Shown here one piece after another: positions 7,623 through 57,275 of a stretch of 57,987 nt of DNA (its first letter is position 1; each line of letters starts with the position of its first letter). Source of the DNA: Actinophytocola xanthii. Its GTDB lineage: Bacteria > Actinomycetota > Actinomycetes > Mycobacteriales > Pseudonocardiaceae. The DNA lies in the NCBI RefSeq assembly GCF_001921205.1, contig NZ_MSIE01000065.1:1-57987 (forward strand), read 5' to 3'. The notes beneath the pieces are model-generated. The model saw nothing but the letters and a program-made list of their open reading frames with translations, had not been told where the DNA came from and searched no databases. The position numbers and the translations under genes were made by a program.

Positions 7623-8560
7623 TCTCGCTGCGCTACCACGTCGTCTCCATCACCGCGGTCTTCCTCGCCCTGGCCGTCGGCGTCGTGCTCGGCTCCACGA
7701 CCCTGTCCCGGTCGCTGCTGTCCGGCCTGACCGACGACAACGAGCAGCTGGCCACGCAGGTCAGCGACCTCGAGGCACAGCGCAACGCCCAGCAGGCCCA
7801 GCTCGCCGACGCCGACGACTTCGCCGCCACCGTCGGCCCCATGGCCGTGCGCGGTCAGCTCGACCAGCGCACCGTGGTGATCATCACCACCGCCGGCGCC
7901 GACCCGGCCGACCGCGACGCGCTCAAGACCCTGCTCGGCGACGCCGGGGCGCGGGTCACCGGCGAGCTCCAGCTCACCGAGGCGTTCAGCAACCCGGAGA
8001 AGGCCGACCAGGTCAAGGACATCGTCATCCGGCTGCTGCCCGCCGGGGTGCAGCTGCCCACCGCGTCCGATCCGGGCAGCCTGGCCGGCGGTCTGCTCGG
8101 TCCGCTGCTGCTGATCGGCAAGGACGACAACAAACCGCAGGCCTCGGCGGACGAGACCGCGGCGGCGCTCGCGGGCCTCACCGAGGGCGGCTTCGTCAAG
8201 GCCGCCCAGCGGGTGGAGCCGGCGCAGCTCGCGGTCGTGCTCACCGGCGGCGCCGCGGAGGGTGACGGCGCGGGGGACCAGGCGGCGACGGTCGCTCGCT
8301 TCGCCACCCAGGTCGACCGGTCCGGCGCGGGAGCCGTCCTGGCCGGCGGCGCTGGGTCCGCCGACGGCACCGGCGCGGTCGGCGTCGTCCGCGCGGACAC
8401 CGCCGCGACCAGCATTTTGTCCACTGTAGACAACGTGGCGACGCCTGCCGGGCGGGTGGTGACCGTGCTCGCGCTGCGCGAGCAGCTCGAGGGCGGAACC
8501 GGCCGCTACGGCAGCGCCGGCAACGCCGAGGCACCGGCGCCGGGTGTACGCACGGAGTAA
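7619..8560 (+). CDS. steB: SteB/MctB family membrane-anchored protein
   Basis: This 313-residue protein starts at GTG 7619, overlapping the steA stop by four bases. An N-terminal membrane segment (residues 8-27, VSITAVFLALAVGVVLG) is followed by a coiled coil (about 36-62, DDNEQLATQVSDLEAQ) and an extracytoplasmic domain. In M. tuberculosis the homologue in this position is called MctB and was linked to copper export; in Corynebacterium it is the SteA partner. No copper-binding Cys or His cluster is visible, so I favour the cell-division role. A run of rare codons lies near 8413-8437. Confidence 0.85.
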   Translation: MISLRYHVVSITAVFLALAVGVVLGSTTLSRSLLSGLTDDNEQLATQVSDLEAQRNAQQAQLADADDFAATVGPMAVRGQLDQRTVVIITTAGADPADRDALKTLLGDAGARVTGELQLTEAFSNPEKADQVKDIVIRLLPAGVQLPTASDPGSLAGGLLGPLLLIGKDDNKPQASADETAAALAGLTEGGFVKAAQRVEPAQLAVVLTGGAAEGDGAGDQAATVARFATQVDRSGAGAVLAGGAGSADGTGAVGVVRADTAATSILSTVDNVATPAGRVVTVLALREQLEGGTGRYGSAGNAEAPAPGVRTE

Positions 8561-45083: not shown

Positions 45084-45156
<73 letters not shown>

Positions 45157-45158
<2 letters not shown>

Positions 45159-45177
45159 CGGTATAGATGCAGGTCAG
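45157..45177. repeat. Sub-terminal repeat ACCGGTAT..TGCAGGTCAG (left copy)
   Basis: ACCGGTAT followed by TGCAGGTCAG with a 3-base insert occurs here and, with a 1-base insert, at 56068-56086. The copies lie inside the element on both sides of the core and would flank attP in the circular form. They are candidate arm-type sites for integrase or excisionase. Confidence 0.6.
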
Positions 45178-45233: not shown

Positions 45234-45248
45234 GACTAACTGAGTGAC
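45234..45248. repeat. 15-bp repeat GACTAACTGAGTGAC (left copy)
   Basis: The same 15 bases recur at 56012-56026 in direct orientation. At the left copy the word TGAGTGACTA is itself duplicated in tandem. Positions are about 75 bp and 100 bp from the respective cores, a spacing that suits integrase arm sites. The left copy touches the integrase stop codon. Confidence 0.6.
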
Positions 45249-46426
45249 TACGCGGCTGTGTCCGTGTCCGGGAAGATCCGGTCCATCTCGGTGGCCGCTT
45301 CCTCGACCACCGGTCGGATCTGGTGCCGGTAGACCCGTTCGGTCACTGCCGTGCCGCTGTGGCCGACCAGGCGCGAGATGACCTCGATTGGCACCTTGGC
45401 GTCCGAGAGCAGCGACACGAAGCTGTGCCGCAGTTCACGGGGTGTCCAGTCCTGTGGGTTGAGCCCGGCAGCCTTCAGGATGCGCCGGAACCCGCGCAGG
45501 ACGTTGTGCCGGTCCATCTCGGTACCGACCTGCGAGGCGAACACCAGGCCGTTCTCCTGCCAGTCCGTACCGGCGCGCTGCCGCTGCACGGCTTGCCGGG
45601 CGTGCTGCCGACGTAGCGCCCGGACGGCACGGTGGGGGATGGCCAGCGACCGGCGAGACCTGCGGGTCTTGGTGTCGCCACCGGTCCGCACCGACCGGAA
45701 CACGTCGACGTGCGGCAGCTCCACATCGTCGCCCGTGCGCTCACCGTCGTCGGGCAGGTGGACGTGCGGCCAGGTCAGGGGCCGTGCTTCCTCGGTCCGC
45801 ACGCCACCGAGGAGCGACACGACGGTGTAGTCACCGATGGTGGAGTCGTCCGCTTCTGCGGCCGTGAGCACTGAGTCGGCCTGGTCGTAGGTCAGGGACT
45901 TGGACGGTCGGCCTTCCTGCCCGGTTGGGCACTCGCACAGCATGGCCACGTTCCGCTTCACCTTGTCCCGTGCCTGCGCGAACGTGATGGAGCGTCGGAG
46001 GATGGACAGGATCAACCGCAGTGACCGCGTGCTGAGTGTCTTTGCCCGGTCGGCAAGCCACTTGTCCACGTCGTCGGCGGACAGCTCACGGAGCTTGCGC
46101 TTGCCGATGTAGGGGACGATGTTGGTGTCCGCGAGGCACCGGTAGTTGGTGACGGTGGCTTGGTCGCGGCCGTTGAGACCGAAGGTCAGCCATGCCTGTA
46201 CCGCGTCGCTCACGTGGTAGTTGTCCGGCGCGATCGGCAAACCGTCGTCAAGGTCGCGGACCATTTCCTTGAGCTTGTCCTTGGCGGCCGTCTTGGTTTT
46301 GCCGCTGGCGCTCCTGGTGATGCGTTTCCCTGCCGGGGTGTAGCCGATGGTCACCTCAGCAATCCAGCGCTGCCGTGGCTCACTCCAGTACAGGCCACCG
46401 TCTCCGCGACTACGCCGTTTGGCCAT
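45248..46426 (-). CDS. int: AICE tyrosine integrase (pSAM2 Int type)
   Basis: This 392-residue recombinase starts at ATG 46426, with GGAGGTGCGTT upstream. The N-terminus holds an arm-binding-like segment (GDGGLYWSEPRQRWIAE) and a SAM-like core-binding domain (DAVQAWLTFGL). Catalytic residues are Arg in GGVRTEEARPL near 208, PRELRHSFVSLLSD (box II, where the first His of HxxR is Arg, as in pSAM2-type integrases), LVGHSGTAVTERVYRHQ with the nucleophile Tyr near 362. It catalyses integration at tRNA-Pro and, with the excisionase, excision. Confidence 0.93.
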   Translation of the reverse strand: MAKRRSRGDGGLYWSEPRQRWIAEVTIGYTPAGKRITRSASGKTKTAAKDKLKEMVRDLDDGLPIAPDNYHVSDAVQAWLTFGLNGRDQATVTNYRCLADTNIVPYIGKRKLRELSADDVDKWLADRAKTLSTRSLRLILSILRRSITFAQARDKVKRNVAMLCECPTGQEGRPSKSLTYDQADSVLTAAEADDSTIGDYTVVSLLGGVRTEEARPLTWPHVHLPDDGERTGDDVELPHVDVFRSVRTGGDTKTRRSRRSLAIPHRAVRALRRQHARQAVQRQRAGTDWQENGLVFASQVGTEMDRHNVLRGFRRILKAAGLNPQDWTPRELRHSFVSLLSDAKVPIEVISRLVGHSGTAVTERVYRHQIRPVVEEAATEMDRIFPDTDTAA

Positions 46427-46619
46427 AACGCACCTCCGATTCACTTTCCAGCAGAGCGACGTAGTTCCGGATTGCGGTTTCGGTGATCAGCGTGGCGCGG
46501 CCCTGCTTCACGTACCGCAGGCGACCATTGCGCATCTGTTCGTAGATGACCGTCCGGCTCATCCGCAGGCGTTCCATCACTTCGGGAACCTTGAACAGTT
46601 CCCGGTTCAGTGCTCCCAT
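46410..46619 (-). CDS. xis: Excisionase (MerR-like HTH)
   Basis: This 69-residue protein has the single winged-helix pattern of phage/AICE excisionases: LFKVPEVMERLRMSRTVIYEQMRNGRLRYVKQG. It overlaps the integrase gene start by 17 bp and the upstream replication gene by 13 bp. It would bind near the att arms and tilt Int towards excision. Confidence 0.88.
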   Translation of the reverse strand: MGALNRELFKVPEVMERLRMSRTVIYEQMRNGRLRYVKQGRATLITETAIRNYVALLESESEVRYGQTA

Positions 46620-47779
46620 GACTCCCCCTCGACATCGGTTTCGTTGTCGGTGTCGTCGTTTTCGGTGGGCAGGTAGCGGCTCCAGGCGTCGGTAAGTCCG
46701 ACCTGGTCTTTGGTGGAGTAGGTGACGTATCCCTTGGTGATTTGGCCACCGATGCGGAATGCGGCAGGCGTGACCTGGTATTGCGACAGTTCCCGCGCGA
46801 GACGTCGAGCGTCGAGGGGACGTCCGCCGTTGACGTCGCCCCAGGGTGCCTCATCCAGCGCGACCAGGTCAGCCAGGATGTCCACGGTCGAAATCCGGTC
46901 GGTGTCCCGCTCAGCGAAGATGGTCCGCAGGTCGGACAGGAGCCGCACTCCCGTGGTGACCGGTTGCAGTTCGGCTTGCTGCACGAAGTAGGCGCACGCT
47001 TGTCGGGCGGTCTGTGGCCAGTGGCCGCCTGCCGCGTCCGCTATGGCCAGCAGGGGTTCCCAGATCTCGCGGGACCGGTTGGCCACTCCGTCCGGCATGG
47101 TCGGTTCGGCTTCCCCGATGGTCTCGGCAATGCCGCCTATCCAGTTCGACAGCGCTTCACGCAACGGTTCCGCGTCGCGCTGCACGATCCGCTCCCGGAA
47201 CTCCTCGGCTTTCTCGGTGCGCTTCTTACGGCGCATGTGGACGGTGATCGCACGCGTGGTGATCGTGGCCGGCATAGCTCCGGCCAACCCGACCAGCGCG
47301 ACCGGCGAGTACACCGGGAACCGTTGGACGCTGTGGCTGTCACCGACGCACCGCGCCACGTGGGCGGTGCGTTTGTAGCCGGCGTTGAGCATGGCGCGGA
47401 GGTCTTCGTTGGTGCCGCCGTTGCTGGTGAAGATGGCGTCTACTTCGTCCCACAGGAGGGTGATCGGGCCGTGGCTGGCGACCATGCGGAACACGGCGGA
47501 GGTGGACGCGTTGAACACCATCTCAGGCTTGCCGACCAGGTACTGACCGACCTCGATTACCAACGTCTTGCCACTGCCCGGTTCCGCGCTGGAGATGACC
47601 AGGCGGGGCGTGACGTAGAAGTGTGCTGCCGCGTGGGTGTGGGCGAACCACAACGCGATAGCGGGTGCGCAGTGCTGGTTGGGGAACACGATGAACCGAG
47701 ACAGGAACGTGGTCACCGCGTCCAATAGGGCGGCACCGGTCAGGTGCTGCGGTTCGACCAGACGGAGCGGGGTGCTCAT
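46607..47779 (-). CDS. P-loop replication/helicase-like protein (DUF3631-type)
   Basis: This 390-residue protein starts at ATG 47779. The P-loop SSAEPGSGKT lies near residue 66 and Walker B ITLLWDEVDAIF near residue 112, with a sensor-like segment GLAGAMPATITTRAITVHMRR. The C-terminal half is the DUF3631-like lid and a winged-helix tail. Longer frames to 48025 include the next gene and are rejected. Such ATPases follow primase-polymerases in AICEs and probably unwind or load at the origin. Confidence 0.8.
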   Translation of the reverse strand: MSTPLRLVEPQHLTGAALLDAVTTFLSRFIVFPNQHCAPAIALWFAHTHAAAHFYVTPRLVISSAEPGSGKTLVIEVGQYLVGKPEMVFNASTSAVFRMVASHGPITLLWDEVDAIFTSNGGTNEDLRAMLNAGYKRTAHVARCVGDSHSVQRFPVYSPVALVGLAGAMPATITTRAITVHMRRKKRTEKAEEFRERIVQRDAEPLREALSNWIGGIAETIGEAEPTMPDGVANRSREIWEPLLAIADAAGGHWPQTARQACAYFVQQAELQPVTTGVRLLSDLRTIFAERDTDRISTVDILADLVALDEAPWGDVNGGRPLDARRLARELSQYQVTPAAFRIGGQITKGYVTYSTKDQVGLTDAWSRYLPTENDDTDNETDVEGESWEH

Positions 47780-47994
47780 GCTGTCCTCCGGGTGTGGGTG
47801 AGGAAGTCGCGGAACTTCGGTGCGGGGTGGGTCTGGCGGTACAGCGCGAGTTCGGTCGGGTAGCCGCCAGTGGCCTGCTCCGCAGCGGCACGCCAGGCCT
47901 CGGCCAGCGACCGGAACGTCAGCACCAGGTCGGCGTGTTCGCGAGAGCAGGGGTGCCGGCGGCATGGGCTCAGGCTGGGTGGGATCGTGGTCAT
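47776..47994 (-). CDS. Small AICE protein, 72 aa
   Basis: The frame is coupled on both sides by ATGA overlaps, to the primase-polymerase before and the P-loop protein after. It contains CRRHPCSREHADL (two Cys and His in a short span) and a C-terminal basic HTRRTA. No family is recognised. Tight coupling suggests it is expressed with the replication genes. Confidence 0.72.
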   Translation of the reverse strand: MTTIPPSLSPCRRHPCSREHADLVLTFRSLAEAWRAAAEQATGGYPTELALYRQTHPAPKFRDFLTHTRRTA

Positions 47995-48941
47995 GCGACC
48001 CTCCGAGGGCGGTTGGCTCCGGCACGCAGGCCAGAGGTGATGGTCTGGTGCGCCTGCCGCTCGCTGTAGGCGTCTGCCGCGATGTGGCCGGCAGCAGCGG
48101 AGATCAGCTCTGCCCTGACGTCCTGTTCGGACAGTGCGCCACCCGCGACCAGTTGCCCCAACGCAACGGCCGCGTGGTAGAGCGCCCAGTTCCGCTCACT
48201 GGTCGCGGAGGTGACTCGTTCGACCTCTCCGCGCACAGCGGCGTCTAGGAAGGCCCCCCGGCGTCCCTGGAGACGCGCAACCGGTTTGGTTGGCACTTTG
48301 GGTAGGGGCGTGGGTGTGAGGCGCTCACAGAGCCACTGAGGCAACGGTCGCGGATCGGTGTCGTTCTCCACCCGGTAGGCGTGTCCGTCCACAACGGACC
48401 CTGGGGCGACGACGTGTCCGCCCCACGCGCGGGTGTCGACCTTCCAGCCGAGTCCGCGTCCCCGGTCACCTCCGGTGTTGCGGAGCTGGACCCCGTGCGG
48501 CGCAATGAAGTAGAAGTGCGTCCCCCCGGACGGGGTGCGGACGGTGAAGGTGTCCCAGGGCACCGGTTGCCCGGCTTGCTCGCAGACGGCGACGAACACG
48601 TCCAACCCGTCAAGGATGCCCGGCAGGTTCCACGCGTCCGGGCGTGGCTTGTCGTCGGGCTTGGGGACGTCGAGGTCCACCACGAGCAACCCGGACGGAC
48701 CGGTCGCGATCGCGACGTTCCATCCTTTGGCCTGCCATGTGTTCCGGTCCCGCGCGGAGAGCGCGGCGACCGCGCGCTGTTCGGGTGTGCGGTGCCCGTC
48801 ACGGCAGTCTCCCTGCCGGGTGCACCGAGCTTCACCGTGCACGGCCGGCTCTTTGCTGCCGGCCCGCAGCGGGAAGACGTGCCAACCGCGTTCGGTCGCG
48901 GCCACGGCCGCAGCCACCAAGGCGTCACGTGTGGGGTTCAT
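47991..48941 (-). CDS. Bifunctional primase-polymerase (prim-pol)
   Basis: This 316-residue protein starts at ATG 48941. It has the AEP primase-polymerase signatures: GWHVFPLRAGSKEPAVHG at the N-terminus, NVAIATGPSGLLVVDLDVP (metal-binding DxD), VRTPSGGTHFYF and GWKVDTRAWGGHVVAPGS. A C-terminal PriCT-like helical domain follows. In AICEs of the prim-pol class this enzyme begins replication of the excised circle. The start codon overlaps the ssb stop by one base (TGATG). Confidence 0.9.
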   Translation of the reverse strand: MNPTRDALVAAAVAATERGWHVFPLRAGSKEPAVHGEARCTRQGDCRDGHRTPEQRAVAALSARDRNTWQAKGWNVAIATGPSGLLVVDLDVPKPDDKPRPDAWNLPGILDGLDVFVAVCEQAGQPVPWDTFTVRTPSGGTHFYFIAPHGVQLRNTGGDRGRGLGWKVDTRAWGGHVVAPGSVVDGHAYRVENDTDPRPLPQWLCERLTPTPLPKVPTKPVARLQGRRGAFLDAAVRGEVERVTSATSERNWALYHAAVALGQLVAGGALSEQDVRAELISAAAGHIAADAYSERQAHQTITSGLRAGANRPRRVA

Positions 48942-49324
48942 CAGGCCACCCGCCCCACAGTGGTGGCCTTGGTGACGCGCACGGTCGCCCACTTCAGCGA
49001 CGCACCAACCTCGGTCACGTCCACATCGGTCACCGTGACGGTCCGGCCGTCCGCGTCGTCGAACGTGCGCTGTCGCAGGATGCCGGTCACCAAGACCCGA
49101 ACGCCCTTGGTGAGGCTGGCAGCGATGTGCTCAGCGAGGTTGCGCCAGGCGGTGCAGCGCAGGAACGCCGCGTCGAGGTCAACCCACTGTCCGGTGTTCG
49201 GGTCGTGGCGTCGGTCGTTGCAGGCGACGGTGAACCGCACGTACGGGACGTTCTTGTCGGTGTGGCTCAGCTCAGGGTCGGAGGTGAGGGTGCCGGCCAT
49301 CGTGATCTCAGGCAATCCAGCCAT
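48941..49324 (-). CDS. ssb: Single-stranded DNA-binding protein
   Basis: This 127-residue OB-fold protein has PEITMAGTLTSDPEL, VPYVRFTVACNDR and FLRCTAWRNLAEHIAASLTKGVRVLVTG. It lacks the acidic DDDIPF-type C-terminal tail that recruits partners in host SSB, ending instead in VRVTKATTVGRVA. It would coat single strands exposed by the element's own replication. Start ATG 49324 gives the expected family N-terminus. Confidence 0.9.
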   Translation of the reverse strand: MAGLPEITMAGTLTSDPELSHTDKNVPYVRFTVACNDRRHDPNTGQWVDLDAAFLRCTAWRNLAEHIAASLTKGVRVLVTGILRQRTFDDADGRTVTVTDVDVTEVGASLKWATVRVTKATTVGRVA

Positions 49325-49440
49325 GACGATGATTACTTTCTGTAAGAAAGAATGGGTGCGCGAGGTCCGGGCGAGCACCCACGCGAAGGGGTGTCGTCCT
49401 GGGGTTTGGGGTTGTCTTCGGGGTTTCGCCTGGTCAGCCG

Positions 49441-49547: not shown

Positions 49548-51809
49548 TTACGCTCCGTCGATATCGCGGGGCGTGGTGGTGGCGCGGTAGGCGGCCACGA
49601 CGTCCGTGCGGGTGATGCCGCGCCGGTTGCCGGTCTTGCCGTCCGGCCCGGTGCCCCAGACCTGTCCGGTGGTGATGCCGTAGGGCTTGAGCGCGGCAGC
49701 GAGCTGGGTGGCCTTGGTCTTGCCGTCCTGCTCTGCCCACGGCCCGTACACGTCCGGGCGGAGGTCGGCGAGACGGTCCACCACGGTCTCCGACCACACC
49801 TTGTCCTGCCCTGCCGGCAGTACCTCACACACGTCCGCCAGCAGGTTCGGCCCACTGTCCGCCCCGGTCAGCGTCTCCTCACCCGCAGCGTGGCCGGTCA
49901 GGGTGCCGGCAGCGGCACGCATCGCACGGGCACGGTCGGAGATCTTCTCCGCGTCCGGTCCGTCCACGTAGGACGAGCGGGTGATCTGCGCGTCGTCGGC
50001 GTTGCCGACCAGCAGACCGATGCCTTTGTCCTTGTGCCCGAACATGGTTGCCCTGATGCCGTTCTTGTACGCGCTGGTGCCCAACACCATGTCGTTGGCG
50101 ACCTGCCCCATGACCCGCAGGCAGAACCGCAGCGACATGTTGTCCGCCACGGCTGGCGGCAGGGACTTGGCGTCGGGACGCTGGGTGGCCAGCACGAGCA
50201 TGATGCCGAGTGCGGGGCCGCGTTTGATGATGGGCACGCACAGGGCTTCTGCCTCTTTGCCCAGGTCGGGGTGGGAGAACAGTTCCTGGCATTCGTCGAT
50301 GGCGAACAGGATCGGGTGCAGGCCCAACCCCTTACGCCGCGCCAACTCTGGCGTGACCTTGTTCTCCGGGCACACCTCACGCGGCAGCTCCCGGATGGTC
50401 TTCGCGCGTGAGTCCAGCTCGGCCTTGACCTGCCGCAGCGACTCCAGGCACGCCATCAGGGTGTCGTCGTCGGCACCGGTGCCGTAGTGGTGCGCGCACT
50501 TCTCGCCAGGCCCGGACAGGTCACCGGTGCCCTTCAGCTCGAAGATGCGCAACTGGACAGTCGGGTCCAGCGCGGCGGCCAGCAGGACGATGCGCAGCGC
50601 GAACGTCTTGCCCTGCCGGGGCATCGCGCCGATGAGCAGGTTGGCGAACATGAGCAGGAACGACACGGCACGTCCGCGCTGGTCCTGCCCGAACGGCAAC
50701 GGCTGGAAGATGTCCGCCCGTCCGGTCTTGGCCAGCGACCACGCGCCGGTCTTGGCCTGGCTCATGTCCTGGTCACCGACCCACAACCGCAGTCGGCCGG
50801 CGTGCTCCTCGGAGACGGGTTCCGGCCACACGCAGCCGAGTGGGCGCCGCAGGCCGGAGGCGAGCTTGTCTCGCCGTTCCATGATGTCGGTGACCACCAC
50901 GCCATACGGCAGGTCCACCGTCGCGAGCCAGCCGGGACCATCGCGCACGATCGGTGCGGGGAAAGTGATGCCGCTGCCGCCCTTGGCCACGGCTTGGTTG
51001 ATCTGCGCGATACCCAGCGACGCCAGGGCACGCACCACCACATCGGAGGTGAGCTTCTGTGCCTTGGTGGTCACCACCGCACGGCCAGCGATGCGCTTGT
51101 CGGACGGGGTGCCCAACCAGCCGAGTCCTCCGACGACGGCGGCCACGGCGAGCCACTGAGCCCACCACGGGCCGAACCCCCACAGCACCAGCACACCCGC
51201 GACCAGTGCCACCGTGGTGAACAGGGCCAGCCACACCCGACCGGCGACGTGGCGTTCACGCGTGAGCTTCAGGTACAGCTCCCCGTCACCCTTCTGTACG
51301 GCTTGCTTGCGCAGTGGTGACGACTCCAGGTCGAACACCCACGAACCCGCGTGCCCCAGGGCCTTGAGTGCGCCGATGGGGGAGCGGAGCGCGAGCTTGC
51401 CGGCGTACAGCGGCAGCCGCACCGCGTGGTAGGCGGACACGTGCGCCGCGTGGTCAGCGGCCCACTTCGCGGTCTGGACGAACTGGGTTCGTGAACGCAG
51501 CCACGGCGCGATCACCGGGCGACGCTTGCCGTTCGCCGCGTTCCGGATCCGGATGTCGAGTGAGGTGTTCACGAACAGGTTCGGCGGGTCCACCGCCAGG
51601 TGTTCGTGAACGGCCGTCTCGTCACCGTTCACGGCACTGGTCACCGCGTCGTTCACAGTGTCCGTGTCGGCATGGTCGGAGGCGGTCACGGACTCGGCGT
51701 CGATGATCACCGGGTCGGTCTTGCGGAAGTCGAGCACCTTCCCACCGACCGTCACGTCCGCACGGCCGTCGTCACTGGGCTCAGGTGTGGTCACAATCGT
51801 GGTGGTCAT
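49548..51809 (-). CDS. FtsK/SpoIIIE-type DNA translocase, AICE transfer protein (TraSA-like)
   Basis: This 753-residue protein has membrane segments near residues 200-235 (LFTTVALVAGVLVLWGFG) and the FtsK domain after about residue 390: Walker A IGAMPRQGKTFALR near 396 and Walker B LFAIDECQELF. A C-terminal winged helix (TKATQLAAALKPYGITTGQVWG) resembles the FtsK gamma domain that reads DNA repeats. In Streptomyces such proteins alone move double-stranded DNA between mycelia. Its start overlaps the previous stop (TGATG). Confidence 0.92.
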   Translation of the reverse strand: MTTTIVTTPEPSDDGRADVTVGGKVLDFRKTDPVIIDAESVTASDHADTDTVNDAVTSAVNGDETAVHEHLAVDPPNLFVNTSLDIRIRNAANGKRRPVIAPWLRSRTQFVQTAKWAADHAAHVSAYHAVRLPLYAGKLALRSPIGALKALGHAGSWVFDLESSPLRKQAVQKGDGELYLKLTRERHVAGRVWLALFTTVALVAGVLVLWGFGPWWAQWLAVAAVVGGLGWLGTPSDKRIAGRAVVTTKAQKLTSDVVVRALASLGIAQINQAVAKGGSGITFPAPIVRDGPGWLATVDLPYGVVVTDIMERRDKLASGLRRPLGCVWPEPVSEEHAGRLRLWVGDQDMSQAKTGAWSLAKTGRADIFQPLPFGQDQRGRAVSFLLMFANLLIGAMPRQGKTFALRIVLLAAALDPTVQLRIFELKGTGDLSGPGEKCAHHYGTGADDDTLMACLESLRQVKAELDSRAKTIRELPREVCPENKVTPELARRKGLGLHPILFAIDECQELFSHPDLGKEAEALCVPIIKRGPALGIMLVLATQRPDAKSLPPAVADNMSLRFCLRVMGQVANDMVLGTSAYKNGIRATMFGHKDKGIGLLVGNADDAQITRSSYVDGPDAEKISDRARAMRAAAGTLTGHAAGEETLTGADSGPNLLADVCEVLPAGQDKVWSETVVDRLADLRPDVYGPWAEQDGKTKATQLAAALKPYGITTGQVWGTGPDGKTGNRRGITRTDVVAAYRATTTPRDIDGA

Positions 51810-55563: not shown

Positions 55564-55772
55564 CAGGGCAAGCCCTTGGCCTCTCAGAAGTCGGTTACAT
55601 CGGTAACACCGGTAACACCGCAGGTCAGGGTAGGTATGGAGCGGTTACCGGCTCAGTTACTGCGGTAACACCCCTGGCCTTCCCCTCAGAAGTCGGTTAC
55701 TGCGGTTACGTCGGTAACACCGCAGGTCAGGCGTGGTGTCCATCGGTGACGTGCCCGGTTACTGCGGTTACA

Positions 55773-55830
55773 CCCCCCCGGCTGTTTCAGCCTCTCGTGG
55801 TGTGTCGGAAGGCTGAAACAGCCGGGGGGG
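55773..55830. repeat. 20-bp perfect hairpin inside the iteron region
   Basis: Arms 55773-55792 and 55811-55830 pair perfectly: seven C with seven G, then GGCTGTTTCAGCC with GGCTGAAACAGCC. The loop is 18 nt. There is no T-tract, so it is not a simple terminator. Such a structure could be a single-strand initiation site. Confidence 0.85.
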
Positions 55831-56011
55831 GGTGCGCGGTGATCCTGTTACCGCAGTTACTTGGGCGGTAACCGGTCCGCACCCCCTCTGACCAGGCATG
55901 TTACCGATGTTACCGATGTAACCGACTTCCGAGGGGGGGAAGGGGGAGAGAGTGGGGAGCGGATCCCGCTCGCGCGGGGGGCGAACCGGCTAGGGCCTTG
56001 CGGGACTGCCG

Positions 56012-56067: not shown

Positions 56068-56086
56068 ACCGGTATGTGCAGGTCAG
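56068..56086. repeat. Sub-terminal repeat ACCGGTAT..TGCAGGTCAG (right copy)
   Basis: Matches 45157-45177 apart from a 2-base shorter insert. It is 39 bp before the attR core, while the left copy abuts attL. Confidence 0.6.
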
Positions 56087-56125: not shown

Positions 56126-56168
56126 CTGGGGGTCAAGGGGTCGCAGGTTCAAATCCTGTCAGCCCGAC
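56126..56168 (+). repeat. attR core: 43-bp direct repeat
   Basis: Identical to 45116-45158. Upstream bases do not complete a tRNA (no acceptor 5' strand or D arm), so this is only the 3' half and marks the right border of the element. Confidence 0.95.
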
Positions 56169-56282: not shown

Positions 56283-57275
56283 ATGACGGGGGATTTGACT
56301 GAAGAGGGTTTACCGCGTCCGGTGCAGCCGGTGTGGCGGGGGTATGTCCAGGAGTGGGATCGGGCGTTGCGGGCGGCGGGCAAGCCGTTGACGACCCGGT
56401 ACAACTATGAGCTTGCGGTGACGCAGTGTGCGGAGTTCTTGGGCAGCGGTGAGGTCGCGCGGTTCGTGGCGGCTTCCGGTGTGGAGGTCGCGGAGGACAT
56501 GTCCGACGCGGCCGAGGACCCGACCGACGTGCAGAGGTCGCATGTGGAGTGGTTCATCGCGTGGATGATTGAGACTCGCTCGGCGTCCACGGCGTTGAAC
56601 AAGTACAAGGCGTTGCAGCAGTTCTTCGGCTATCTCGAGGACGAGGAGGAGATCACCCGGCATCCGATGCGGCGGATGTCGCAGCCGACGAAGACGAAGA
56701 AGCTGGTGCCGGTGTTGGGTGATGAGGAGATCGCAGCGGTGCTGGCGACCTGTTCGGGGAAGTCGTTCCTGGATCGGCGGGATACCGCGGTCATCCGCCT
56801 GTTGCTGGACACCGGCGGTCGGCTGACCGAGACGACGATGGTCGACGTGGACGATGTGAATCTGCGGCGGGACCTACTGAAAGTGCGGGGCAAGGGCGAC
56901 AAGGAGCGGGCGATTCCGTTCGGGGAGAAGACCGGGCAGGCGATCACGCGGTACCTGCGGGTGCGCGCCAAGCACCCTGGCGCTGGTCTGCCGGCGTTGT
57001 TCCTGGCTGAGCGTGGCCGCAAACGCCTGGGGTCGGACGGGGTCAAGACGATGTTGCGGCGCCGCGGTGAGGCGGCGGGGATAGGGCGTCTACACGCGCA
57101 CCGCTTCCGCCACACCCTCGCGCACGAATGGCGCCTCAACGGTGGCGACGCTGATGACCTGATGGCGATCATGGGTTGGGAGTCCCGCGAGATGCTTCGG
57201 GTCTACGGGGAGAGTGCGGCCGCGGTGCGGGCGGAGGCCACTCACCGTCGGCTCGGGCTCGGCAACCGCGTGTGA
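56283..57275 (+). CDS. Tyrosine recombinase/integrase outside the AICE
   Basis: This 330-residue protein has a SAM-like N-terminal domain (SASTALNKYKALQQFFGYL) and a catalytic domain with Arg in DTGGRLTETTMVDVD, Lys in VRGKGDKERAIPF, HAHRFRHTLAHEW, and MGWESREMLRVYGES, where His is replaced by Trp and Tyr is the nucleophile. GGAGG precedes the ATG by eight bases. It is unlike the AICE integrase and shows no att repeats of its own in the window. Together with the next gene it may be part of an older element at the same tRNA locus. Confidence 0.88.
   Translation: MTGDLTEEGLPRPVQPVWRGYVQEWDRALRAAGKPLTTRYNYELAVTQCAEFLGSGEVARFVAASGVEVAEDMSDAAEDPTDVQRSHVEWFIAWMIETRSASTALNKYKALQQFFGYLEDEEEITRHPMRRMSQPTKTKKLVPVLGDEEIAAVLATCSGKSFLDRRDTAVIRLLLDTGGRLTETTMVDVDDVNLRRDLLKVRGKGDKERAIPFGEKTGQAITRYLRVRAKHPGAGLPALFLAERGRKRLGSDGVKTMLRRRGEAAGIGRLHAHRFRHTLAHEWRLNGGDADDLMAIMGWESREMLRVYGESAAAVRAEATHRRLGLGNRV

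Follow-up and report, generated by a model that had tools for sequence, protein, structure and literature searches.

A mirrored array of 9-bp-spaced boxes is the probable replication origin of a RepAM-encoding integrative element in Actinophytocola xanthii

What purpose is served by a large, strikingly regular repeat array at the edge of an integrated element of Actinophytocola xanthii? The array is found in contig NZ_MSIE01000065.1 (57,987 nt; we call the whole of this stretch of DNA the window). It lies inside an actinomycete integrative and conjugative element (AICE) of ~11 kb that is integrated at a tRNA-Pro gene, beside its attachment site attR and within 200 bp of it. The original prediction proposed the array as the replication origin of prim-pol AICEs, or possibly as a transfer locus, with the prim-pol, a P-loop protein or a short GntR protein as its binder. 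The comparative sequence analyses described here make it highly probable (roughly 0.85) that the array is the replication origin (oriV) of the element and that the P-loop protein RepAM, of the DUF3631 family, is its AAA+ initiator. The C-terminal winged helix of RepAM would read the mirrored boxes in their 9-bp spacing, and replication would be theta-type and bidirectional.

A direct search of the window retrieved all 17 GTAAC/GTTAC boxes of the original prediction, each at its expected coordinate. The steps within successive clusters are 9,9 / 12,9 / 9,9 / 9 / 9,12 / 9,9, and the mirror axis placed at 55758 is arithmetically correct for the outer pair of clusters and for the second pair. The order was said to exceed chance, and simulation bears this out: 300 first-order Markov simulations of the window yielded at most 4 boxes per 330 bp (mean 2.1) and no 9-bp triples, against 17 boxes in the real array. 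The region is crossed by short open reading frames (ORFs) only, in agreement with its description as non-coding. A GTGAC at 55746 represents a degenerate 18th box, the missing member of the fourth cluster, which brings each of three modules to six boxes. The unit of the array is thus a six-box module of ~91-95 bp, with box steps of 9,9,32,12,9 that are mirrored in copy 3, present in two direct copies and one inverted copy:

55580-55674, plus strand: module copy 1 (from repeat analysis), with GTWAC boxes at 55594, 55603, 55612, 55644, 55656 and 55665 and the GCAGGTCAG spacer at 55620
55682-55776, plus strand: module copy 2, direct, with boxes at 55696, 55705, 55714, 55746 (GTGAC), 55758 and 55767 and GCAGGTCAG at 55722
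55770-55833, no strand: hairpin between copies 2 and 3, with 24-nt arms at 55770-55793 and 55810-55833 that are 96% complementary
55846-55936, minus strand: module copy 3, inverted, with boxes at 55847, 55856, 55868, 55900, 55909 and 55918 and CTGGTCAG on the minus strand, by reading

Copies 1 and 2 are 80% identical at an offset of 102, and the inverted copy 3 is 81% complementary to copy 1 and 74% to copy 2. As copy 3 is inverted relative to copy 2, the two form a second dyad centred near 55809 (by arithmetic). The hairpin was previously described as 20 bp long; its presence is confirmed, with the longer arms and the location given above, and it could serve as a terminator or form a structural centre. 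The array has no nucleotide match in the plasmid collection, and in its own genome it matches nothing but itself. Exact copies of GCAGGTCAG number five in the window, for 0.77 expected. Further copies are found at 45169-45177 (beside attL), at 56078-56086 (beside attR) and at 7756, outside the element; those flanking the attachment sites may be an arm site for Int or Xis, or the factor that binds the array may have a second site there.

Which protein goes with the array? We searched 297 genomes of the family for the pattern GTWAC-N4-GTWAC-N4-GTWAC and found it in 39, mostly as an inverted pair among the matches listed. DUF3631 is encoded in 112 of the 297 genomes and in 35 of the 39 array genomes (Fisher p 6.6e-13), while a reversed control pattern matched eight genomes, five of them with DUF3631 (p 0.16). 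For 32 of 36 array stretches (33 of the 39 genomes) the DUF3631 gene is on the same contig at less than ~12 kb, the exceptions being L052, L065, L068 and L069. Prim-Pol matches, present in 275 of the 297 genomes as against 39 with a GTWAC array, do not discriminate the array genomes for that very reason, and two genomes with both RepAM and an array (G058 and G193) gave no Prim-Pol match in the genome search. Prim-Pol was rejected as the array partner on these two grounds, which also leave its proposed role as binder of the 9-bp units without support. Relatives of the two GntR proteins of the window were not found in many array stretches, with the window proteins as the only queries and stretches of mostly 20-21 kb. 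Among the three candidate binders, RepAM is thus the one favoured by the comparison, and the array most likely belongs to RepAM (DUF3631) rather than to prim-pol. The idea of an origin therefore holds, and its attribution to prim-pol elements gives way to the RepAM system.

Two observations from this survey concern atypical stretches. L068 and L069 come from two genomes of one genus and have GTWAC triples with partly similar surroundings; they perhaps belong to a larger element with a diverged initiator. In L036 (G004:C157), from the same genus as the window, a similar array adjoins homologous GNAT and GntR genes, and a DUF3631 fragment lies between array and att site; it is possibly a decayed element.

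We then compared 80 named RepAM loci, which ranked best among 95. Amycolatopsis, Saccharothrix, Lentzea, Prauserella, Kutzneria, Mycobacterium, Nocardia, Rhodococcus, Corynebacterium, Dactylosporangium and Glycomyces are among the genera represented. A first scan showed GTWAC arrays in 24 of the 80. In 24 GTWAC-type arrays the commonest box counts are 10 (nine arrays) and 12 (six arrays), with a range of 1-13; arrays with 10 or 12 boxes would fit five or six boxes per half. Many loci that lack a GTWAC array have the same layout with another word, mostly at or inside the 3' end of repAM (22 loci displayed). A strict detector of inverted pairs of 9-bp triples with any word was applied to 85 loci (the 80 named ones, four further records and the window); it found such pairs at period 9 in 58 loci and at each of nine other periods in 0-1. 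With a relaxed scan, which requires a triple followed by CAGGTCAG or CTGGTCAG at a fixed offset with at most two mismatches, 68 of 84 loci were positive; shifting the offset left 3-9 of the 84, and changing the period 0-4. Conservation of box spacing in related elements had been suggested as a check of the origin, and the spacing is indeed conserved, which argues for the candidate.

The box can be written G-N-N-A-C. Across 57 left halves, conservation is 94-100% for G, A and C, and the middle two bases depend on the clade. In left halves the spacer CAGGTCA shows 84-96% conservation at each base; right halves have CTGGTCA, at 64-92%. Some arrays contain long inverted repeats, many of which, among those displayed, include boxes themselves, and we make no claim of a general central hairpin. 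L155, a distant homologue in a Pseudomonas phage, has no array by the strict or the relaxed scan. The RepAM sequence of L072 (Kibdelosporangium banguiense) was left out, as it has two in-frame stops in the matched range, which may reflect a broken copy or a frameshift within the tblastn range.

The position of the arrays relative to repAM is also characteristic. Of 57 strict arrays, 48 begin between -39 and +22 bp from the end of the RepAM match, and so does that of L152 by annotation; eight others are 8.7-11.1 kb from repAM, as in the window. The reading frame of repAM extends into the array in 47 of the 48 3'-end arrays, by 4-5 bases only in six of them, so that the repeats could conceivably be maintained as a VTxVTx tail of RepAM. 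However, the left triple lies inside the repAM ORF in 41 arrays, and its boxes are in frame 0 in 24 of them and in frame 1 in 17. The use of two reading frames points to selection on the DNA, and the window copy and eight other arrays are detached from repAM altogether. The protein-coding explanation was rejected on account of the two frames; we find it barely credible. In one frame, the translation of the detached copy 3 of the window still resembles the RepAM tail of L037, which suggests that the window copy was once at the 3' end of a repAM gene. In another unusual locus, L057 (G061), two half-arrays ~2.5 kb apart flank prim-pol and repAM.

If RepAM reads the boxes, changes of box word might be expected to follow its phylogeny. 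We counted word changes on protein trees of the same loci, with 200 label shuffles as the null. On 36 loci, the tree of the RepAM C-terminal domain requires 4 changes, that of the RepAM core 6 and that of Tra 11 (shuffle mean ~15, lowest 10-11; for the Tra tree, 15.1 and 11). On 31 loci the numbers are 5 for the C-terminal domain, 7 for the core and 10 for Int (lowest shuffle 10-11; 11 for Int), and on 22 loci they are 4, 5 and 7 for the C-terminal domain, the core and Prim-Pol, respectively (shuffle mean 8.6-8.8, lowest 5). The box word thus tracks the tree of the RepAM C-terminal domain better than that of Tra or Int. The signal on the latter two trees is expected of genes that travel together and is lower than that of RepAM. 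Earlier trees, which differ in rows, labels and columns, gave 12 word changes with 79 rows and 22 for the AAA+ core with 77 rows.

These trees bear on two alternative functions. The array might be a cis-acting locus of transfer (clt) bound by the FtsK-like Tra. Streptomyces relatives of Tra read repeated 8-bp motifs through a C-terminal winged helix. TraB of pSVH1 reads 8-bp motifs, and clt loci consist of short repeats (PMC3583192). Tra homologues are present in many array stretches of the relatives, and the 11 changes on the Tra tree, equal to the lowest of 200 shuffles, amount to some word signal. That signal is nevertheless below those of the RepAM core and C-terminal domain on the same 36 loci, most relatives hold the array at the 3' end of repAM, and the word of the TraB recognition sequence of pSVH1 is absent from the element. 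The clt part of the original prediction is therefore disfavoured, and we regard it as unlikely. Arm sites for the integrase or Xis in the attachment region would account for the proximity of attR (<200 bp), for the GCAGGTCAG copies at 45169 and 56078 and for the word signal of the Int tree (10 changes for a shuffle minimum of 11). The Int signal is again below that of the RepAM C-terminal domain (10 versus 5 changes), and the location at the 3' end of repAM in most relatives fits this function poorly; we give it next to no weight.

Returning to RepAM as the reader of the boxes, we looked for residues that covary with the word. Alignment column 340 is the best predictor of the box word (67 loci). 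Among 77 loci, base 2 of the box is T with A, V, P, T or R at residue 340 (36 of 36) and C with N, D or E (35 of 35); the three loci with G have Q, Q and K, and the three with A have Q, Q and D. The divisions between C and the other bases and between N/D/E and the other residues agree in 76 of the 77 loci, L143 being the exception. Ten of the 77 loci joined after the column had been chosen, and their words were read with the residues already known. Column 340 carries 0.91 of the base-2 entropy, and the next column 0.54. Six of the 12 best columns for base 2 (339, 340, 341, 343, 347 and 352) are inside predicted strands 339-343 and 346-352, two (354 and 360) come just after them, and 195, 222, 223 and 225 are elsewhere. 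For loci sharing 40% identity or more, a prediction was fixed beforehand, then tested on class-level loci and scored by hand. It was right in nine new loci (L188, L189, L191, L193, L195, L196, L198, L200 and L201); among recurring loci, L187 was right and L203 (identical with L183) wrong. Below the threshold, at 39% identity, L202 and L205 agree, and L213 has no detected triple, though its visible GTCCC boxes would disagree. From these alignments, we propose residue 340 as a specificity residue for the boxes, with a code that may be partly readable: C at base 2 would go with N, D or E, T with T, A, V or P, and A or G with Q or K, though some clades depart from it.

Is RepAM the kind of protein that could open an origin? 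It passes the curated cut-off of PF12307 and is thus a member of the DUF3631 family. Its structural model resembles AAA+ helicases of the MCM type, consistent with a predicted AAA+ replicative-helicase fold. All 50 matches listed by the VIA structure search are MCM-type chains, none of them a protein of a Staphylococcus aureus pathogenicity island (SaPI). Foldseek matches include ORC, RuvB and RavA chains and PriRep1, a SaPI protein. A sequence profile search of the PDB with RepAM found no helicase of the SaPI Rep or Cch2 families; its matches were marginal (E 0.008), to the designed chains YIIIM6AII/(KR)5 and to an importin chain. A Pfam scan at E 0.1 gave DUF3631 only, with no rolling-circle initiator family and no HUH domain.

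RepAM has nonetheless been described as a predicted rolling-circle initiator, with a pC194-like nick site predicted for RepAM elements, and the main text of that paper does not contain the word 'iteron' (PMC3218068). The array would then be a double-strand origin nicked internally by RepAM, and the window array does include a hairpin. The Pfam result and the helicase-like model speak otherwise. The pC194 nick core, CTTGATA, occurs neither in the window nor in any of the 57 strict arrays, although a nick site may have diverged, and a mirror-symmetric array would rather suit bidirectional loading. The RepAM fold and the symmetry of the array leave the rolling-circle mode unsupported; we deem it very unlikely, and our data argue against it for RepAM elements.

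In the replication model that we favour, the element would first be excised. The C-terminal winged-helix domain of RepAM would recognize the 5-bp G-N-N-A-C boxes, repeated every 9 bp, mirrored and with a fixed CAGGTCAG/CTGGTCAG spacer, and RepAM would assemble on the two mirror-image halves, presumably as hexameric rings. It would then melt the DNA and unwind it outward, with the co-encoded Prim-Pol priming synthesis and SSB protecting the strands, in theta-type, bidirectional replication. In the circular form, the att junction would join the array to int-xis-repAM. Genes for Int, a helix-turn-helix protein, DUF3631, Prim-Pol and Tra follow one another in the window order in two circular records from Streptomyces, NZ_CP108827.1 (13.5 kb) and NZ_CP108973.1 (14.3 kb). 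The former has a strict array and the latter one half by the relaxed scan. These circles are compatible with autonomous circular forms, without proving replication from the array.

Such an arrangement has counterparts. At the origins of SV40 large T antigen and papillomavirus E1, short mirrored boxes load a double hexameric AAA+ helicase. The origin-binding domain is N-terminal in those proteins and would be C-terminal in RepAM, and we claim no homology. These viral origins have been compared with SaPI-type origins (PMC7581432). SaPI Rep and Cch2 of the staphylococcal cassette chromosome SCCmec are initiator helicases with a C-terminal DNA-binding domain and iterons downstream of their genes, and SaPI Rep appears to bind as two hexamers (PMC7581432). 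RepAM would resemble them as an AAA+ initiator helicase with short iterons and an adjacent primase; the iterons adjoin the helicase gene in the 48 of 57 strict arrays and L152 mentioned above, and the window array lies across the att site. The helicase families differ (Primase_Cterm/D5 and DUF927 for the staphylococcal proteins), and so do the arrays, those of RepAM having a 9-bp register, a mirrored layout and a near-constant CAGGTCAG spacer and often lying inside the initiator gene. The strongest experimental precedent found, by analogy, is the Streptomyces plasmid pWTY27 (14.3 kb), which encodes Int, Kor, Spd, Tra, a primase/polymerase and RepA and replicates bidirectionally, with a ~105-bp repeat dyad footprinted by RepA (PMC3583192). 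It shares with the window element a primase/polymerase and a Rep protein with adjoining non-coding repeats in a dyad. Its repeat words are different, of 7-8 bp (GTGGGAAC and TTCCCAC), and its RepA is called hypothetical there. The pMEA300-type AICEs, likewise integrated elements of actinomycetes, also encode RepAM/DUF3631, in some cases with Prim-Pol next to it (PMC3218068). Our literature search found no description of the array, with limited coverage of subscription journals, so that papers on pMEA300 may describe part of it. In the literature searched, this AAA+ initiator helicase family had not earlier been linked to an iteron origin.

Iterons often have a second role in copy-number control, and the array might be a regulatory or incompatibility array only, at which RepAM or a GntR protein represses or handcuffs, replication starting elsewhere. 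A short GntR-type gene is indeed located near the window array. Yet the complete dyad is maintained together with the gene for the initiator (no other origin was searched for), and GTWAC does not resemble the motif published for a KorSA homologue (PMC8584621). A purely regulatory function seems to us still less probable than rolling-circle replication.

Several findings weigh against an origin read by RepAM. DUF3631 has no match in four of the 39 array genomes; the two examined, L052 and L065, show no mirrored array. In G094 and G224 (L068 and L069), the stretch holds no relative of the window proteins, and the nearest DUF3631 match is weak and ~35 kb away. Of 84 fetched loci, 27 escape the strict detector and 12 of these the relaxed scan as well; for some, such as L083, the array may be outside the compared stretch. 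In the window itself, the array lies beyond int, xis and att, away from the 3' end of repAM. No AT-rich unwinding element stands out, the array centres averaging 63% GC for 67% in the loci (~65% without two centre-less arrays). On the trees, the changes for Tra (11) and Int (10) are at or under the lowest shuffle (11 for both), which is some signal, and those for Prim-Pol (7) and RepAM (5 and 4) barely differ on 22 loci, a weak comparison. As to residue 340, an independent-pairs test had five supported pairs only, with the same direction in 4.8 on average (p 0.06). L183/L203, with D and the word GGACC, contradicts the rule and was left out of the fitted set. The fixed prediction was wrong in 3 of 12 predicted new loci (L190, L197 and L204), and three more with glycine (L192, L194 and L199) received no prediction. 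Lastly, the readable loci of a distant clade (34-39% identity) have GTCCC with N and GTACC with T, which do not fit the base-2 rule; there, residue 340 varies with base 3 instead, so that the rule is useful without being universal.

These results provide a locatable origin and a specific candidate DNA-binding partner for common but poorly understood actinomycete integrative elements. They also offer a natural set of initiators with differing box words, with which origin specificity becomes directly testable in soil bacteria that are harmless. More tentatively, and with somewhat less than even confidence, we suggest that RepAM elements are a large unrecognized class of self-loading initiator-helicase replicons across the Actinomycetes, in which a half-dyad of five or six boxes would load one ring. 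Residue 340 would mainly set the word, in a partly readable code that may let several elements coexist in a cell.

The remaining features of the window element are as follows.

45084-45159: tRNA-Pro gene
45116-45158, plus strand: attL, the 3' end of tRNA-Pro(ggg); a search confirmed 29 bp of the 43-bp repeat, which was delimited by reading
45248-46444, minus strand: tyrosine integrase (Int), PF00589
46410-46619, minus strand: Xis-like helix-turn-helix protein, PF12728 (E 2.5e-9)
46607-47779, minus strand: RepAM, 390 aa, PF12307 (DUF3631; 198.5 bits for a cut-off of 24), with an AAA+ core and a C-terminal domain (about residues 295-372) that is a putative winged helix
47991-48941, minus strand: Prim-Pol, PF09250 (123.6 bits; scanned as ORF 47991-48992, start by reading)
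48941-49324, minus strand: SSB, PF00436 (E 2.5e-23; scanned as ORF 48941-49378, start by reading)
49548-51809, minus strand: Tra, FtsK-like by weak EccC matches (E 4.6e-6, far under their cut-offs), with no Pfam match
56126-56168, plus strand: attR, the second copy of the 43-bp repeat

Integration at a tRNA gene, att sites in direct repeat and an integrase gene are as expected of an AICE. Its other genes code for a 307-aa protein, a WhiB-like protein, a GntR-UTRA regulator, a GNAT protein and the short GntR protein. Just outside attR, a second tyrosine recombinase gene of the XerC/XerD type is present at 56283-57275 (PF00589, 95 bits). The same genome also harbours a second RepAM locus, L161 (G000:C79), with the word GTCCC at its 3' end. 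As this word differs from that of the window, two such elements could coexist.
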